From Saccharothrix sp. (lineage in GTDB: Bacteria; Actinomycetota; Actinomycetes; Mycobacteriales; Pseudonocardiaceae): DNA of 64,000 bases. The first letter of the stretch is position 1. The number at the start of each line of letters is the position of its first letter. The DNA lies in NCBI RefSeq assembly GCF_031180885.1, contig NZ_JAPSLK010000031.1:1-64000 (forward strand), in the 5' to 3' direction. The notes under the pieces were generated by a model, which was not told the origin of the DNA, did no database searches, and saw only the letters and a program-made list of their open reading frames with translations. The position numbers and the translations under genes were made by a program. This document shows positions 2,344 to 36,955 of the stretch, one piece after another.

Positions 2344-3129
2344 ATGACCGCCACGCTTGAGTCCGCCGTTCCGTCCTCTGTGGACGCAGCTGTGACCCTG
2401 TCCGCGGTGCGCAAGACGTTCGGGCACGGACCGAACGCGGTCACGGCGCTCGACGGCGTCGACCTGCGGGTCGCGCCGGGCGAGTTCGTGTGCCTGCTGG
2501 GCGCGTCCGGGTGCGGCAAGTCGACCTTGCTCAACCTGGTCGCCGGGCTGGACGCGCCCACCTCGGGCTCCATCGCGCTGACCACCTCGCGGCCCGCCGT
2601 GATGTTCCAGGAGGCGGCCCTGATGCCGTGGCTGACCGCCGCGCGCAACGTGGAGCTGCCGCTGCGGCTGGCCGGGGTCAAGCGCGGCGCGCGCCGGGAG
2701 AAGGCCGGTGAGCTGCTGGAACTGGTGCGGCTGTCGGAGGCCGGGCACAAGCGCCCGCACGAGCTGTCCGGCGGTATGCGCCAGCGCGTGGCCCTGGCGC
2801 GGGCCCTGGCCTCGACGCTGGGCAGCGCCGAGGAGGGCACGCCCGGCCTGCTGCTGATGGACGAGCCGTTCGCGGCGCTGGACGCCATCACCCGGGACGT
2901 GCTCCAAGCGGAGCTGGTGCGGGTGTGGCGGGAGACCGGGACGGCGATCGTGTTCGTCACCCACGACGTGCGCGAGGCCGTGCGGCTGGGCCAGCGGGTC
3001 GTCCTGCTGTCCTCGCGGCCCGGTCGCGTCGTGCGCGAGTGGTCCACAGTGGACGGTGACGAGCCCGCGCTGGTGCAGGACATCACGAGCCGGCTGCGAG
3101 AGGTGATCAGTGGCCACGCCGCAGCTTGA
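2344..3129 (+). CDS. ssuB: Sulfonate-type ABC transporter ATP-binding protein
   Basis: Energises the importer at the inner face of the membrane. The 261-residue protein shows Walker A GASGCGKST, the Q-loop in VMFQEAALMPW, the signature LSGGMRQRVALARAL, Walker B LLLMDEPFAALD and the switch histidine in FVTHDVREA. An A/G-rich ribosome site (GGGGAAGG) precedes the ATG. Its last 20 bases overlap the permease start, so the two are probably translationally coupled. The symbol is given by family and context; tauB or nrtD-type function cannot be excluded from sequence alone. Confidence 0.9.
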   Translation: MTATLESAVPSSVDAAVTLSAVRKTFGHGPNAVTALDGVDLRVAPGEFVCLLGASGCGKSTLLNLVAGLDAPTSGSIALTTSRPAVMFQEAALMPWLTAARNVELPLRLAGVKRGARREKAGELLELVRLSEAGHKRPHELSGGMRQRVALARALASTLGSAEEGTPGLLLMDEPFAALDAITRDVLQAELVRVWRETGTAIVFVTHDVREAVRLGQRVVLLSSRPGRVVREWSTVDGDEPALVQDITSRLREVISGHAAA

Positions 3130-3988
3130 CAACGACCTGGCGGCGGTCGGCGCGGGCCTGGACGCGCTCGACGCGCCGTCGCAGGAGCAGCGCCCGTCGC
3201 TGGGCAGGCGGTTCGTCCGCACGGCCCTGCCGCCGCTGATCGCGTTCGCGCTGCTGCTGGGCGTGTGGCAGGCGCTGTGGGCGGCGGCGTTCTGGCCGGA
3301 GTACCAGCTGCCCTCGCCGGCGTCGGTGTGGGCGGCGGTGGCCGAGGCGGTGGAGACCGGGCGCGCGTTCGACGTGCTGTGGACGTCGGTGCACCGCGCG
3401 GTGCTCGGCTTCCTGACGGCGGTGCTGATCGCGACCCCGTTGGGGTTGTTGATCGCCAAGGTGCGCGTGGTGCGGGCGGCGATCGGGTCGCTGCTGACCG
3501 GTTTGCAGTCGCTGCCGTCGGTGGCGTGGGTGCCGGCGGGCATCCTGTGGTTCGGCGCCACCCCGTCCACGATCTACTTCGTGGTGCTGATGGGTTCCGT
3601 GCCGTCGATCGCCAATGGTCTGGTGTCGGGCGTCGACCAGATCCCGCCGCTGCTGCCGCGCGTCGGGCAGGCGCTGGGGGCGGGTCGGTTGGCGGCGGCC
3701 CGGCACATCCTGCTGCCTGCGGCCTTGCCGGGCTACCTGGCCGGGTTGAAGCAGGGGTGGGCGTTCTCGTGGCGGTCGCTGATGGCGGCGGAGATCATCG
3801 CCACCTCGCCGCAACTGGGTGAGGGTCTGGGGCAGTACCTGCACAACGGGTCTTCGTTGAACGACATCTCGATGGTGATCGCGGCGATCTTCCTGATCCT
3901 GCTGGTCGGCATCGGGATCGAGCTGCTGGTGTTCCGGCCGTTGGAGCGGGCGGTGCTGCGGGCACGCGGCCTGTCGGGTGCGCTGTGA
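3110..3988 (+). CDS. ssuC: Sulfonate-type ABC transporter permease
   Basis: Inner-membrane channel of the importer, 292 residues, with a cytoplasmic N-terminal stretch of about 35 residues and then several hydrophobic segments typical of the BPD_transp_1 family. The EAA-type loop is seen around GAGRLAAARHILLPAALPGY. The GTG start lies inside the 3' end of the ATPase gene, preceded by GAGAGG. The stop overlaps the start of the next gene (GTGA), continuing the operon. Confidence 0.88.
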   Translation: MATPQLDNDLAAVGAGLDALDAPSQEQRPSLGRRFVRTALPPLIAFALLLGVWQALWAAAFWPEYQLPSPASVWAAVAEAVETGRAFDVLWTSVHRAVLGFLTAVLIATPLGLLIAKVRVVRAAIGSLLTGLQSLPSVAWVPAGILWFGATPSTIYFVVLMGSVPSIANGLVSGVDQIPPLLPRVGQALGAGRLAAARHILLPAALPGYLAGLKQGWAFSWRSLMAAEIIATSPQLGEGLGQYLHNGSSLNDISMVIAAIFLILLVGIGIELLVFRPLERAVLRARGLSGAL

Positions 3989-31429: not shown

Positions 31430-32410
31430 TCAGCGGCGGCCGTGGGCAGCGACGATCTTCAAGACCGCCCGTTCCAGCGCGTAGCCCGAGTCCGCCGCGA
31501 CACCCTTCACGTCCGCGTTCAGGTCCGCGACCACCGACATCGCCGCCGCCAGCCCGGCCCCGTCCCAGCCCCGCGCCTGCCCCTGCGCCTTCTTCACCTT
31601 CCACGGCGGCATGCCCAGCTCACCCGCCAGCTTGAACGGGTCACCCCGACCCACCGCCGACACCCGCGCGATGGTCCGCACCGCGTCCGCCAGCGCGTCG
31701 GCGACCAGGACGTGCGGCACACCGAGGTGGATCGCCCACCGCAACGCCTCCAGCGCCCCCGCCCGGTCGCCCATGACCGCCTTCTCCGCCACCGCGAACC
31801 CGGTCACCTCGGCCCGGCCCCGGTGGTAGCGGTGGACGGCCTCCACGTCCACCTTGCCGCCGGTGTCCGCGACGAGCTGCGACGCCGCCGCCGCCAGCTC
31901 CCGAAGGTCGGACCCGACCGCATCGATGAGCGCACCGACCGCCTCCGGGTCGGCCTTGCCGCCCGCCGTGCGGATCTCGTTGCGGACGAACGCCTCGCGG
32001 TCGGCGGCCTTGGTGATCTTGGGGCACTCGATCACCTCGGCCCCGGCCTTGCGCAAAGCCGTAGGTAGTTCCTTCGCCACTTTGCTGCGCCCGCCGCCCG
32101 TGTGGACGACCACCAGGGTCACCCCGTCCGCCGGCGACTTCGCGTACGCGAGGACCGCGTCCGCGATCTCCTTGCCGGCGTCCTGCGCACCCTCCAGAGC
32201 GATCACGCGACCCTCCGCGAACAGCGACGGGCTCACCAGTTCGGCCAGCTCAGGAGGGGTGAGGTCGGTCACCTTCACGCGGGTCAGGTCGGCCTGCGGA
32301 TCGACCCGGCGGGCCGCGGCCAGCGCCCTGCGGACAGCACGCTCGACCAGCAACTCCTCCTCGCCGACCACCAGTTGCACGGGGGCCGGGGCGACTGCGG
32401 ACGCGCTCAC
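31430..32410 (-). CDS. holA: DNA polymerase III subunit delta
   Basis: Clamp-loader subunit that opens the beta clamp. The 326-residue protein has the delta layout: N-terminal AAA+-like domain (LVVGEEELLVERAVRRAL), ALEGAQDAGKEIADAVLAYA, middle lid and C-terminal collar domain ending GYALERAVLKIVAAHGRR. The GTG at 32410 starts just before the conserved APVQLVVGEEE. Its location near rpsT and comEC follows actinobacterial synteny, although thrC and a hypothetical gene intervene before comEC. Confidence 0.9.
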   Translation of the reverse strand: MSASAVAPAPVQLVVGEEELLVERAVRRALAAARRVDPQADLTRVKVTDLTPPELAELVSPSLFAEGRVIALEGAQDAGKEIADAVLAYAKSPADGVTLVVVHTGGGRSKVAKELPTALRKAGAEVIECPKITKAADREAFVRNEIRTAGGKADPEAVGALIDAVGSDLRELAAAASQLVADTGGKVDVEAVHRYHRGRAEVTGFAVAEKAVMGDRAGALEALRWAIHLGVPHVLVADALADAVRTIARVSAVGRGDPFKLAGELGMPPWKVKKAQGQARGWDGAGLAAAMSVVADLNADVKGVAADSGYALERAVLKIVAAHGRR

Positions 32411-32508
32411 GGACCCGATCCTCCCACGCCGCCGTCGCCGTCCGGATGGTGGACGGATCTGGCTGAAGCTCGGGACGGTGTCGTAAGTTGAGGGCACAAC
32501 CGAATACC

Positions 32509-32624
32509 GCTCATCCAGAGGGGCAGAGGGATCGGCCCGAAGAAGCCCCGGCAACCCGTCGTTGCAGTGCTGCGCACTGCCGACCACGGTGCCAATTCCG
32601 ACCCGCCTCGCGGGAAAGATGAGG
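32509..32624 (+). ncRNA. SAM-I (S-box) riboswitch
   Basis: The aptamer core is present in order: P1 5' strand CTCATC (32510-32515), the CAGAGGGGCAGAGGGAUCGG internal loop, GGCCCGAAGAAGCCCCGGCA then ACC, a variable hairpin GCAGTGCTGCGCACTGC, GGTGCCAATTCCGACCCG, and GGGAAAGATGAG closing P1 (GATGAG 32618-32623). These match the SAM-I consensus closely. The GAGGAG ribosome site (32621-32626) of thrC overlaps the P1 3' strand, so ligand binding could directly hide it. The only gene downstream is thrC. Confidence 0.93.
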
Positions 32625-32636
32625 AGAAACCTCGCG

Positions 32637-33899
32637 ATGACCGCTGTCAGTGTGCCCTCGACCGCCACCTCCTTCGACCTCGGCCCGGCCCGTGCCCTGT
32701 CGTGTCGCGAGTGCGGTCACGAGACCCCGCTCGCCCCGGAATACGCCTGTCTCGAGTGTTTCGGGCCGCTGGAAGTCGCCTACGACTTCGGCCGCGTCCG
32801 CCGCGAGGACATCGAGGCGGGCCCCCGGTCGATCTGGCGCTACCGCGGCCTGCTCCCCGTGCCCTCGGACGTCGAGTCGCACCCCAACACCAACCCCGGC
32901 CACACCCGCCTGGTCGAGGCCGACAACCTCGCCAAGGCCCTGGGTGTCCGGAAGGTCTGGGTCAAGGACGACACCGGCAACCCCACCCACTCGTTCAAGG
33001 ACCGCGTCGTCGGCGTCGCCTTGGCGGCGGCCCGCGAGCTGGGCTTCAAGGTCCTCGCCTGCCCCTCCACCGGCAACCTCGCGAACGCCGTCGCCGCCGC
33101 CGCGGCCCGTGCGGGCTGGCAGTCGGTCGTGCTCGTCCCCTCCTCCCTCGAGCGCGCCAAGATCCTCATGACCGCCGTCTACGACGGCAACCTGATCACG
33201 GTCGACGGCAACTACGACGACGTGAACCGCCTCGCGCAGGAACTCGCCGCCGAGCACGAGGACTGGGCGTTCGTCAACGTCAACGTCCGCCCCTACTACG
33301 CCGAGGGCTCGAAGACCCTCGGCTACGAGGTGGCCGAGCAGCTGGGCTGGCGCCTGCCCGACCAGATCGTCGTCCCGATCGCGTCCGGCTCCCAGCTCAC
33401 CAAGGTCGACAAGGCCTTCCGCGAACTCGGCGAGCTGGACCTGGTCGAGGCCACCCCGTACAAGGTGTTCGGCGCCCAGGCCACCGGCTGCTCCCCCGTG
33501 TCCGCCGCGTTCAAGGCAGGCCACGACGTGGTCTCCCCCGTCCGCCCGGACACCATCGCCCGCTCCCTGGCGATCGGCGCCCCCGCCGACGGCCCGTACG
33601 TGCTCGACGCGGTCCGCCGCACGGGCGGCGCGATCGAGGACGTCACCGACGAAGAGGTCGTCGAGGGCATCCGCCTGCTCGCCCGCACCGAGGGCATCTT
33701 CGCGGAGACCGCCGGCGGCGTGACCGTGGCGACCGCGAAGAAGCTCATCGAGTCCGGACAGCTCGACCCCGAGGCCGAGACCGTGCTGCTGATCACCGGC
33801 GACGGCCTCAAGACCCTGGACGCCCTCGGCGACCGCGTGGGACCGCGCGCGAACGTCCCGCCGTCGGCCGAAGCCGTCATCAACGCCCTCAAGGACTGA
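32637..33899 (+). CDS. thrC: Threonine synthase with N-terminal zinc-ribbon-like segment
   Basis: PLP enzyme of 420 residues converting O-phosphohomoserine to threonine. An N-terminal CxxC pair (Cys23/26 and Cys38/41) forms a zinc-ribbon-like cap. The PLP lysine is expected in NPTHSFKDR (Lys121), with the phosphate-binding STGNLANA loop and GSQLTKV further on. The gene is alone, not with hom or thrB, and sits behind a SAM-I riboswitch, which is unexpected for threonine synthesis and raises the chance that it is a threonine synthase-like paralogue serving methionine metabolism. ATG 32637 follows GAGGAG by 10 bases. Confidence 0.88.
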   Translation: MTAVSVPSTATSFDLGPARALSCRECGHETPLAPEYACLECFGPLEVAYDFGRVRREDIEAGPRSIWRYRGLLPVPSDVESHPNTNPGHTRLVEADNLAKALGVRKVWVKDDTGNPTHSFKDRVVGVALAAARELGFKVLACPSTGNLANAVAAAAARAGWQSVVLVPSSLERAKILMTAVYDGNLITVDGNYDDVNRLAQELAAEHEDWAFVNVNVRPYYAEGSKTLGYEVAEQLGWRLPDQIVVPIASGSQLTKVDKAFRELGELDLVEATPYKVFGAQATGCSPVSAAFKAGHDVVSPVRPDTIARSLAIGAPADGPYVLDAVRRTGGAIEDVTDEEVVEGIRLLARTEGIFAETAGGVTVATAKKLIESGQLDPEAETVLLITGDGLKTLDALGDRVGPRANVPPSAEAVINALKD

Positions 33900-33932
33900 C
33901 CGCCGAGCAAGGTCCACAGCAGACCCCGCCGT

Positions 33933-33980
33933 GGCTTGCGCGCCAGGGCTTTTCGACCGAAAGGCCTTGGCGCGCAAGCC
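33933..33980. terminator. Large near-perfect hairpin after thrC
   Basis: GGCTTGCGCGCCA (33933-33945) pairs perfectly with TGGCGCGCAAGCC (33968-33980), and most of the loop also self-pairs (CTTTTCG / CGAAAGG). It lies 34 bases after the thrC stop and immediately before a repeat array. Termination is the simplest role. Confidence 0.65.
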
Positions 33981-34001
33981 AAACGCGGTCCCAGCCGGCC
34001 A

Positions 34002-34196
34002 TCGAACGGCCAAACTGCCAACCGCACGGCCAGCCGCCCAACGCACGGCCAAACTGCCAACCGCACAGCCGGCCGCCCATCACACGGCCCAGCCGCCCAT
34101 CACACAGCCCAGCCGCCCATCACACAGCCCGGCCGCCCATCACACGGCCCGGCCGCCCAACGCACGGCCCGGCCGCCCAACGCACGGCCCGACTGT
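34002..34196. repeat. 20-bp unit tandem array, about ten copies
   Basis: Units of 20 bases, typically CACACGGCCCAGCCGCCCAT, run almost without gaps. From 34061 to 34180 six units are in perfect register, and earlier copies vary at 2-6 positions. A 20-base period is not codon-compatible, so this is not coding. It fills the space between thrC and the convergent hypothetical gene. Confidence 0.88.
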
Positions 34197-34651
34197 CACA
34201 AGGTGAGGCGGGCGGTGCGCAGCCACCCGCTGCGCGGGAACGAGGACAGCTCCGGCATCACGTGCGGCTCCACCTCCTCGACCTCCGCACGCCAGGCGGT
34301 GACCAACTGCGGCCACGGCACCGCGGACTTGTGCCCGTTGTAACGATTGGCCCGCCAGTTCTCCGGCGGGATCGTCAGCTCGTCGTCGAACAGCGCGTCC
34401 GCGATCCGGCGATACGCGGCCTCCGGCGACTTCACCTCCGTGGTCGGGACCATCTTGGTGACCTTCGCCTTCGCCACGATGGCACGCCCGTCCCGCCCGA
34501 CGTCGTCGCAGATGTAGAAGACGAAGTCGGGCCCCAACTCGTCGCGCGGCCAGGGATGGGCCACGTACCCGGGCTGCCACAGCGCCCACCCCACCTCACG
34601 CGGTTCCCAGCCGGTGTGCAGGCGGATCCAACTGTCGTTGTCGTTGCTCAT
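34196..34651 (-). CDS. Hypothetical protein, possibly PUA/EVE-like
   Basis: 151 residues, Trp-rich (WIRLHTGWEPREVGWALWQP), with a predicted beta-rich core including DFVFYICDDVGRDGRAIVAK and AKVTKMVPTTEVKSPEAAYR. The pattern of alternating strands and a gap for a ligand recalls PUA-like or EVE domains, but the match is weak. It lies 12 bases after comEC on the same strand with a good ribosome site (GGGGAGAAACC). Function unknown. Confidence 0.65.
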   Translation of the reverse strand: MSNDNDSWIRLHTGWEPREVGWALWQPGYVAHPWPRDELGPDFVFYICDDVGRDGRAIVAKAKVTKMVPTTEVKSPEAAYRRIADALFDDELTIPPENWRANRYNGHKSAVPWPQLVTAWRAEVEEVEPHVMPELSSFPRSGWLRTARLTL

Positions 34652-34663
34652 GGTTTCTCCCCT

Positions 34664-36955
34664 TCACTTGTTGTCGATCGGGTCGCCGCGCCGGGCGACC
34701 CGCGGCCCGTCCGGGCCGGGTAGGACGGCGGTGTCGCCGTCCCGGTCGGTGCGCAGGACCAGCGCACCCTGACGTGCGAGCGAGTCGACCAGCACGCCGC
34801 TGGGGTGGCCGTAGCGGTTGCCCGCGCCAACGCTGACCAGCGCAACCTTCGGCCGCACCGCCGCGAGGAACGCCGGCGACGAGTAGCGCGACCCGTGGTG
34901 CGGCACCTTCAGCACGTCGGCCCGCAGGTCGACCGGCGCGTCGAGCAGCCCGGCCTGGCCCGCGAGTTCGACGTCCCCGGTCAACAGCACCCGCCCGGCC
35001 GGGGTCGACGCGCGCAGCACCAGCGACGCGTCGTTGACGGCCGTGTTCTCCTCCCCTCTCGGGACCACCCGCGGCCCCAGCACGTCCAGCTCCAGCCCCG
35101 GCCAGCTCAGCCGCTGCCCGGCGGCCAGCTCCACCACGCGGACACCCGCCGCCCGCGCCTGTTCCCGCACCTCCCTCCAAGCCCATCCCGGATTGCGCGA
35201 CGGACCCACCGCCACCGCGCCCACACCCCGCTCCGCCAGCACCGCCGCCAACCCACCGATGTGGTCGGCGTGCAGGTGGCTGAGCACCACCAAGGGCACT
35301 TGCCGCACGCCCAGCCGCCGCAGGCACCCCAACACCGGCACCGGATCGGGCCCGGTGTCGACCAACACCGCCCGGCCGGGCTCGGCCGTCGCGAGGACGA
35401 CCGCGTCGCCCTGCCCCACGTCGCACGCGACCACCGCCCAGCCGGACACCGGCCACCGCGGCGCGAACACCCCGACCGGAGCCAGCACCGCGACCAGCCC
35501 GACCACGACCGCCACGAGCAACACCCGCACCCGCCGCCACCGCAGCAGCAGGTAGCCGACCAGCACCGCGGCGGCCAACGCGGCACCGCCCGCCCAGCCC
35601 TGCGGCCACGAGACGGCCGACCCCGGCACCGCCGCCGCGTGCCGCCCGACCGCCACCAACCAGCTCGCCGCCGGACCGGCCACCTCCACCACCAGCCGCG
35701 CCAGGCCCTCGTGGACCTGGGCGACGCCGGCGGCCACCACCCCGAGCACCGTCACCGGCGCGACGACCGGCGCCACCAGCAGGTTCGCGGGCACGGCGAC
35801 CAGGCTCACCTCACCCGCGAACCCCGCGATGAGCGGAGCGGTGGCGACGTGCGCCGCCGCGGGCACCGCCAGCGCCTCGGCCAGCCCGACCGGCACGCCC
35901 CGGTCGCGCAGCCACCCCGCCCACGACGGCGCCAGCAGGACCAGCGCCGCCGTGGCGACGACCGACAAGCCGAACCCGACATCGACCGCCAGCCCCGGGT
36001 CGTGGAGCACCAGCACCACCACGGACGCGGCGAGGGCGGGCAACGCCGACCGCTCCCGCCCGAGCACCAGGGCGAGCAACGCCACCGCACCCATCACCGC
36101 CGCCCGCAGCACGCTCGGCTCCGGACCGGCGAGCAGCACGAACCCGACCAGCGCGGCCATCGCCCCGACCGCACGCCCGCGGGGCCCCACGGGGAACAGC
36201 CGCAGCAGCAACAGCACCGCGCCGCACAGGATCGCCAGGTTCGCCCCGCTGACCGCGAGCAGGTGCGCCAGCCCGGCCGTGCGGAACTCCTCCACCACCC
36301 TGGACGACAACCGCGAGGTGTCGCCGACGACCAGGGCGGGCAGGAGCCCCGCCGGTTCCGGGTCGAGCGCGCCGCTCGCGTCCCGCAGGCCCGACCGGAG
36401 CGCCTCCGCCCCGCGCTGCCACACCGGTGCGGGCGTGACCTCGCGCGGCGGACCCCGGACCCGCAACAGGGCGACGGTCGGCTCACCGGGCCGGGCCGGT
36501 GCCAACGAGCCACGTGCCAGGACGCTCTGCCCGGGCAGGAGCGTCCGCCACGTCGCCGCCGGCGCCAGCACGACCACCCGGCCGCCGTCTTCGAGCGTCG
36601 CCTGGGCTCGGACCAGGTCGACCCCGCCCTGCCGCGAGCCGAACCCGCTGGTGCGCAGTCCGTGCGGCCGGTCGTCCAGCTCGAACCGGAGGGTGGTGGG
36701 CCCACCGTGCTCGGCCGCCGAACGCAGCGGGTGGTGGGCCGACGCGTGCAGCTGGAGACCGATCCAGCACGCCGCCACCGGCCCGGCCACCACGACGGCC
36801 ACCGCCGTGGGCCGCACCCGGCGGAGGACCAGGCCACCGATCCCGCCGGCCGCGAGACCGATGACCACGGCCCACCACCAGGCCCACAGCAACCCGGTCA
36901 GGGCCGCCGCCCACACGGCCAGCGCCGCGGGAACCAGGTGGGCGCGAGGGCTCAC
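34664..36955 (-). CDS. comEC: ComEC/Rec2 DNA-uptake channel protein
   Basis: 763-residue membrane protein thought to pass single-stranded DNA during transformation. The N-terminus has several hydrophobic segments and a DUF4131-like domain, the middle a competence domain (VSGANLAILCGAVLLLLRLF) with more helices, and the C-terminus a metallo-beta-lactamase-like domain with SHLHADHIGG. The GTG start overlaps the stop of a 33-codon ORF with a strong ribosome site and has little ribosome site of its own. Natural competence in actinomycetes is mostly unproven. Confidence 0.9.
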   Translation of the reverse strand: MSPRAHLVPAALAVWAAALTGLLWAWWWAVVIGLAAGGIGGLVLRRVRPTAVAVVVAGPVAACWIGLQLHASAHHPLRSAAEHGGPTTLRFELDDRPHGLRTSGFGSRQGGVDLVRAQATLEDGGRVVVLAPAATWRTLLPGQSVLARGSLAPARPGEPTVALLRVRGPPREVTPAPVWQRGAEALRSGLRDASGALDPEPAGLLPALVVGDTSRLSSRVVEEFRTAGLAHLLAVSGANLAILCGAVLLLLRLFPVGPRGRAVGAMAALVGFVLLAGPEPSVLRAAVMGAVALLALVLGRERSALPALAASVVVLVLHDPGLAVDVGFGLSVVATAALVLLAPSWAGWLRDRGVPVGLAEALAVPAAAHVATAPLIAGFAGEVSLVAVPANLLVAPVVAPVTVLGVVAAGVAQVHEGLARLVVEVAGPAASWLVAVGRHAAAVPGSAVSWPQGWAGGAALAAAVLVGYLLLRWRRVRVLLVAVVVGLVAVLAPVGVFAPRWPVSGWAVVACDVGQGDAVVLATAEPGRAVLVDTGPDPVPVLGCLRRLGVRQVPLVVLSHLHADHIGGLAAVLAERGVGAVAVGPSRNPGWAWREVREQARAAGVRVVELAAGQRLSWPGLELDVLGPRVVPRGEENTAVNDASLVLRASTPAGRVLLTGDVELAGQAGLLDAPVDLRADVLKVPHHGSRYSSPAFLAAVRPKVALVSVGAGNRYGHPSGVLVDSLARQGALVLRTDRDGDTAVLPGPDGPRVARRGDPIDNK

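Follow-up and report, generated by a model that had tools for sequence, protein, structure and literature searches.

The stretch of DNA analysed here (the window, 64,000 nucleotides from a Saccharothrix sp.) encodes, on its plus strand, a 420 amino acid protein resembling threonine synthase (ThrC), and the gene, read below as metM, is preceded by a complete SAM-I (S-box) riboswitch aptamer. A cmscan search of the whole 64-kb window returned RF00162 at 32508-32625 (plus strand; 82.5 bits against a gathering score of 44.4, E 6.1e-18, model positions 1-108) as the sole Rfam match above its gathering score, in agreement with the preliminary description of this DNA, which had recognised such an aptamer ahead of a ThrC-like gene from the letters alone. 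Eleven nucleotides separate the end of the aptamer from the ATG. The features of the locus are as follows:

32508..32625, plus strand: SAM-I (S-box) riboswitch aptamer, RF00162 (cmscan)
32510..32515, plus strand: 5' strand of P1, CUCAUC, P1 being 6 bp long (covariance-model alignment)
32618..32623, plus strand: 3' strand of P1, GAUGAG (alignment; GATGAG is invariant in 28/28 aligned leaders, these being 28 of 32 leaders)
32621..32626, plus strand: Shine-Dalgarno sequence GAGGAG, its three leading bases within the 3' strand of P1 (sequence)
32630..32636, plus strand: CCTCGCG immediately 5' of the start codon, a putative functional element (predicted fold and leader alignment)
32637..33899, plus strand: metM-type ThrC-like PLP enzyme, 420 aa plus stop, a predicted O-phosphohomoserine-dependent homocysteine synthase (profiles, clade, pocket residues)
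32703..32759, plus strand: CxxC...CxxC cap, residues 23-41, zinc-ribbon-like in its sequence (alignment)
32997..32999, plus strand: PLP lysine K121, the counterpart of K61 in T. thermophilus threonine synthase (alignment)

The overlap between the ribosome site and the 3' strand of P1 that had been noted earlier is thus real and amounts to three bases (32621-32623). The gene lies between holA and comEC (31430-36955), and the next plausible ORF 3' of it is on the minus strand at 34196-34651. By eye, the interval 33925-34200 holds an extended inverted repeat, GCTTGCGCGCC...GGCGCGCAAGC, that lacks a T run, and behind it a series of short GC-rich near-tandem repeats.

The window protein scores 267.9 bits with TIGR00260, the NCBIfam thrC model (cut-off 167.1), and also matches PF00291, the PALP fold. 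TIGR00260 does not separate the MetM clade from ThrC. The best named relative among the matches listed is from Saccharothrix luteola, with 95% identity over residues 1-420. Elsewhere in the genome (9.46 Mb in 125 contigs) a separate canonical ThrC of 358 aa, 34% identical to the window protein, is encoded on contig C19 between hom and thrB, the ThrC and Hom calls being confirmed and the thrB-like ORF judged by eye; unlike this thrC, the window gene is not clustered with hom or thrB. The second thrC beside hom and thrB for which the preliminary description proposed a search therefore exists, and the possibility it had raised that the window gene encodes the only threonine synthase of the genome is rejected.

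A quick tree built from 75 proteins places the window protein in a clade that holds together on one branch (SH-aLRT 100), with ThrC and four further ThrC-like paralogues lying outside it. The PLP lysine is retained in 158/158 clade members and in the 15/15 ThrC proteins compared, a narrow set made up of the window genome's own, 13 from Pseudonocardiaceae and one from T. thermophilus. Six positions (T. thermophilus numbering 88, 155, 157, 160, 188 and 249), some of which we take to be substrate contacts in the T. thermophilus enzyme, are constant in these 15 proteins and carry another, equally constant residue in all 158 clade members, close relatives included: T88, S155, N157, R160, N188 and W249 of ThrC correspond to L148, N216, R218, Y221, S250 and G319 in the window protein. 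Since most of the six positions also differ between ThrC and the other ThrC-like paralogues, the changes exclude an ordinary ThrC but do not prove a MetM. The CxxC-CxxC cap (C23, C26, C38 and C41), to which the preliminary description had pointed in suggesting a paralogue for the methionine branch, is present but is not diagnostic of such a paralogue: all seven other ThrC-like paralogues (7/7) have it, and it has been lost in 24/158 members of the clade. The suggestion itself fares better, the window protein belonging to the MetM clade and not to that of ThrC. The MetM assignment was made via Streptomyces orthologues and the metM-carrier gene layout, the S. albulus MetM being known by description; clade rows L065-L068 are assigned to Streptomyces on the grounds that the MetO protein encoded next to metM in L065 is 92-94% identical to those of L218, L220 and L221, which are named as Streptomyces.

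Distribution of metM and of methionine-pathway genes

Two samples, the window genome included, were searched: 148 actinomycete genomes representing the class, several of them incomplete MAGs, and 80 genomes from the family Pseudonocardiaceae. A window-type protein is encoded in 80/80 family genomes, its own included, the best match in the other 79 being 75-93% identical. In the class sample 108 genomes pass a threshold of E 1e-60, and metM is counted in 106/148, G007 and G023 having been dropped as holding only 37%-identical paralogues. In 104 of these 106 genomes, the window genome again included, metM is immediately preceded by a SAM-I aptamer, at no more than 76 nt from the estimated start in 102 and at 254-267 nt in two; both metM genes without an aptamer (G015 and G067) are cut by a contig end. 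With at most 24 candidates scored per genome under stricter filters, the class sample gave 115 SAM-I places, of which 11 are not at metM, and two of the 11 (L227 and L228; by eye) stand ahead of metM-like fragments where a contig ends. In the family, the aptamer is within about 20 nt of the metM start in 27/28 fetched loci; the one locus that departs from this, L099, holds a second metM copy of genome G195, whose other copy has the aptamer. The pairing of SAM-I and metM is therefore not special to the window locus: in actinomycetes, SAM-I usually stands before metM. The chromosomal neighbourhood is more restricted, with a holA-like sequence in 27/28 and comEC in 25/28 family metM loci and neither in any of 49 class loci (tblastn E 1e-8, fetched flanks).

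Several individual loci may be recorded here. The second metM copy of L099 (about 2498-3748) is 68% identical, and a SAM-I aptamer at 1672-1761, ~740 nt upstream of it, stands before an acetyltransferase-like ORF (by eye). At L229 (G116 contig C24), SAM-I lies upstream of a peroxiredoxin-like ORF (by eye). A 76%-identical metM of actinomycete type among the matches listed comes from a contig labelled as a Spirochaetaceae MAG (L191), which is probably mis-binned. Two SAM-I riboswitches were found in the window genome; the one outside the window, at L007 1501-1591 (G000 contig C41), lies upstream of a MetN-like ABC ATPase (named by eye).

Strong MetX was defined as a score above 300 bits with TIGR01392, with up to 12 candidates scored per genome, and is found in 78/148 genomes; the 500-bit cut-off of that model is reached by no sampled genome and by no control genome. 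Some 63/148 genomes, a number of them incomplete, have metM without strong MetX. The window genome encodes a MetX (NF001209, 412.3 against 331), a MetY-like protein ~1.6 kb from it on contig C79 (478.8 bits, just below the 495.1 of TIGR01326) and, on contig C61, a cystathionine gamma-synthase (NF005871, 676 against 513), so that MetM may here be a second, SAM-regulated route.

These surveys bear on whether the window gene might encode a true second threonine synthase, lowered by SAM for the sake of flux balance. The genome already has a canonical ThrC in hom-thrC-thrB, and the residues constant in 15/15 ThrC proteins are replaced in 158/158 members of the window protein's clade, although the protein passes the NCBIfam thrC cut-off, retains the PLP lysine and the STGN motif, and has a cyanobacterial MetM homologue that is reported as mainly ThrC-like in vitro (PMC12172450). 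The gene content of other genomes is harder to square with a threonine enzyme: among 15 metM genomes examined, none has MetA (PF04204) or HcyBio (PF01837) and 14, all except the window genome, also lack strong MetX, which leaves these 14 with no recognisable homocysteine route unless metM supplies one, or as auxotrophs. We regard a second threonine synthase as improbable.

The SAM-I leader

Many core columns of the aptamer are invariant across 28/28 aligned leaders. Between 32380 and 34300 a simple consensus scan found no sigma-70-type promoter and a simple pattern scan no T-run terminator, for which reason translational control is the simplest reading; transcription termination as the mode of control is, by the same simple pattern, unsupported. 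We infer from the sequence that the RNA binds SAM and acts as an OFF switch. When SAM is plentiful, P1 would be stabilised and the start of the Shine-Dalgarno sequence, lying in its 3' strand, would be hidden, with less MetM translated as a result; when SAM falls, MetM would be made and O-phosphohomoserine diverted from ThrC towards methionine. The preliminary description had found repression of a threonine synthase by SAM counterintuitive, but the paradox dissolves once the gene is read as metM: an enzyme of methionine synthesis is expected to be under SAM feedback, and repression of MetM by SAM would be feedback of the ordinary kind in this pathway.

The aptamer is not recovered by plain folding of the leader, whose stability is not unusual (z -1.41 and -1.62). 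In the predicted minimum-energy fold the CCTC of CCTCGCG pairs with the GAGG of the ribosome site, and the SAM-free state may therefore be only partly open. CCTCGCG is kept before the ATG in the window and in 21/24 other aligned Pseudonocardiaceae leaders (counted by eye), and the motif (32630-32636) would also complement the 5'-terminal sequence of bacterial initiator tRNA. In a Xanthomonas SAM-I switch the ribosome site is covered without SAM too, and uncharged initiator tRNA opens it (PMC7270179).

In other metM leaders, the 3' arm of P3 is complementary over 7-12 nt to the spacer between the ribosome site and the AUG (for example L014, L017, L036, L065, L084 and L097, and further L101, L149, L172, L180, L224 and others). 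Leaders at 142/158 loci fitted a fixed pattern, and 95 remained once near copies were removed. P3 pairing of at least 7 bp is present in 34/95, a few of them pairing in another register, against a permuted mean of 16.6 and maximum of 30 (2000 permutations, relatedness ignored); pairing of at least 6 bp, in 45/95, is reached by some permutations (maximum 47, relatedness again ignored), and 50/95 have 5 bp or fewer. At the level of short motifs, CGAGG in the 3' arm of P3 is complementary in many relatives to CCTCG before the AUG: 33 of the 95 dereplicated leaders have both, five the P3 motif only, 16 the ribosome-side motif only and 41 neither (Fisher p 1.7e-8, relatedness ignored). Covariation of the flanking pairs, assessed in 32 anchored leaders, is found at one position (9 of 5000), is weak at two (120 and 125 of 5000) and is not seen at the outermost two (1049 and 1178 of 5000) or at the innermost on the other side (462). 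The window itself does not have the pairing, its longest match being 4 where the shuffled mean is 4.6, and with its near kin it is without the P3 half.

CCTCGCG persists before the ATG in the lineage of the window though the P3 partner is absent. In some Nocardioides (L199, L201 and L207), P3 contains CCTCCT, complementary to the ribosome site AGGAGG. A P3-loop pseudoknot is a feature of SAM-IV RNAs. For SAM-I, the accessible portions of the literature searched, PMC2864571 included, yielded nothing on pairing between P3 and the ribosome site.

The full-length and high-scoring RF00162 match, the core columns invariant in 28/28 leaders and the retention of the aptamer before almost every metM sampled speak for a working switch and against a relic aptamer with a gene downstream that is now constitutively expressed. 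A relic would account for the absence, from the window and its near kin, of the P3 arm complementary to the pre-AUG motif of other genera, for a predicted SAM-free fold in which a hairpin covers the ribosome site and for the failure of plain folding to recover the aptamer; we nevertheless consider it very improbable.

Candidate sulfur carriers

Hasebe and colleagues are said to have shown in 2024 that MetM uses O-phosphohomoserine together with thiocarboxylated MetO. In our samples, a gene for a small carrier of the ThiS/MoaD type follows metM in 29/49 class loci and in 45/80 named loci, including the Streptomyces loci L218, L220 and L221, the named loci being the best 80 of at least 575 relatives. 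Outside the window genome, adjacency was assessed at 49 of 105 class metM genes and at 28 of the 80 window-type genes of other family genomes. None of the 28 fetched Pseudonocardiaceae loci (0/28) has metO next to metM, and nothing MetO-like follows metM in the window. Mapping MetO adjacency on the MetM tree requires 8 changes, of which starred branches force 3, so the arrangement must have been lost or gained repeatedly.

The closest carrier in the window genome is CysO, encoded within a mec-cysO-cysM cluster, and CysO may therefore feed both cysteine and homocysteine synthesis. The same company of Mec and CysM is found at 7/7 other family CysO loci fetched (L125-L131), and a CysO/MetO-like protein is present in 79/80 family genomes, the best matches sharing 55-66% identity with the MetO query. 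A tree of the carriers, built on 92 columns, unites the MetO proteins on one branch (81/89; recovered in 79% of bootstrap trees) that excludes CysO, and CysO forms no supported single group (41/0). L010 (G000 C24:5320-5589) encodes a solitary member of the ThiS family with 37% identity to MetO, beside a BNR/sialidase-like protein (by eye), and weaker ThiS-family matches like it occur in part of the Pseudonocardiaceae genomes.

Outside the family, metO is absent beside metM in 20/49 class loci, and 18 of these 20 genomes have a CysO/MetO-like protein; the other two, just 82-84% complete, give no MetO/CysO-like match at all. Whether MetO is adjacent shows no association with whether the genome has MetX (Fisher p 0.55 over 49 loci). 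Twelve of the 20 genomes are without strong MetX, and in the 10 of these examined for MetA and HcyBio there was no match to either; one of them, G053, has a weak MetX-like match (159.5 bits). The cleanest case, G095 (a single contig, 100% complete), has metM with its riboswitch (L080), no MetO and no MetX match, and its sole carrier match is CysO in mec-cysO-cysM (L141). Genomes of this type suggest that CysO may be able to serve MetM.

An alternative that concerns the sulfur donor only is that the Pseudonocardiaceae MetM uses free sulfide and needs no carrier protein. The loci without an adjacent metO (28/28 in the family and 20/49 in the class) would fit this, as would the two class genomes that have no MetO/CysO-like match, though these are 82-84% complete. 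The keeping of a CysO/MetO-like protein in 79/80 family genomes and 18/20 class genomes, and the 55-66% identity of the family's best matches to the MetO query, argue for a carrier, but presence of CysO is weak evidence because CysO has a role of its own in cysteine synthesis. We think free sulfide possible but on balance unlikely.

Taking the evidence together, we read the window gene as metM, encoding a PLP-dependent homocysteine synthase whose translation is predicted to be repressed through SAM-I and whose sulfur would come from CysO or sulfide, and we put the probability of this whole reading at roughly 0.85. The enzyme, with its ThrC fold, would act on the O-phospho-L-homoserine that Hom and ThrB supply, exchanging its phosphate for sulfur to give homocysteine. 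For the Pseudonocardiaceae MetM, the sulfur is probably the thiocarboxylate of CysO from mec-cysO-cysM, or sulfide, since no dedicated MetO adjoins metM. A broader and distinctly tentative proposal, which we would not expect to hold in all its parts, is that in Pseudonocardiaceae and several other lineages without MetO, CysO feeds both CysM and MetM while SAM switches the methionine branch, and that many actinomycete leaders use P3 as the strand opposing the ribosome site, the P3 side having been lost in the lineage of the window.

Relation to known systems

The Streptomyces protein MetM is reported to be a homocysteine synthase (Hasebe et al. 2024, AEM 90:e01247-24, via PMC12172450), in a paper whose title, as given in the reference list of PMC12172450, names the O-phospho-L-homoserine route. 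PMC12172450 further describes a SAM riboswitch upstream of S. albulus metM and places metO in a sulfur-carrier family; our literature search, which extended to parts of papers, returned nothing on MetM beyond this source. The window resembles the S. albulus MetM/MetO system in having a ThrC-homologous enzyme with an upstream SAM riboswitch (PMC12172450), and its protein is 66-68% identical, among the matches listed, to the Streptomyces MetM proteins of L218, L220 and L221, each of whose genes is then followed by a carrier gene. It differs in layout, the Pseudonocardiaceae metM being without metO in 28/28 loci and having holA (27/28) and comEC (25/28) as neighbours, and in the additional presence of MetX and a MetY-like protein in the window genome.

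The association of a SAM riboswitch with a 'threonine' gene is likewise in print: in S. lividans a SAM riboswitch precedes SLIV_16930-SLIV_16925, which PMC8079986 files under 'threonine biosynthesis', just as RF00162 precedes a gene of that annotation in the window. In its accessible parts, a 2013 survey of riboswitch regulons represents the Actinobacteria by Corynebacteriaceae and Mycobacteriaceae only and makes no mention of 'thrC' (PMC3766115). MetM largely explains the pairing; what differs here is the carrier-less arrangement. Actinomycete 'threonine synthases' behind SAM riboswitches are probably homocysteine synthases, which would explain a puzzling annotation. As regards known SAM-I switches, the ribosome site of the window overlaps P1 directly, and complementarity between P3 and the pre-AUG sequence is a feature of many of its relatives and not of the window itself.

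A close parallel to the predicted chemistry is the mycobacterial CysO-CysM-Mec system, in which, as in that proposed for MetM, a PLP enzyme acts on an O-phospho amino acid with a thiocarboxylated carrier (PMC3227635). The carrier-less variant makes it possible to test directly whether a single thiocarboxylated protein can serve two amino-acid branches, and the 10 genomes that have metM without adjacent MetO, strong MetX, MetA or HcyBio, several of them incomplete, are natural test cases. Mycobacterial CysM converts O-phosphoserine to cysteine (PMC3227635); a mec-cysO-cysM cluster is also present in the window genome, and CysO is predicted to be used by MetM as well.
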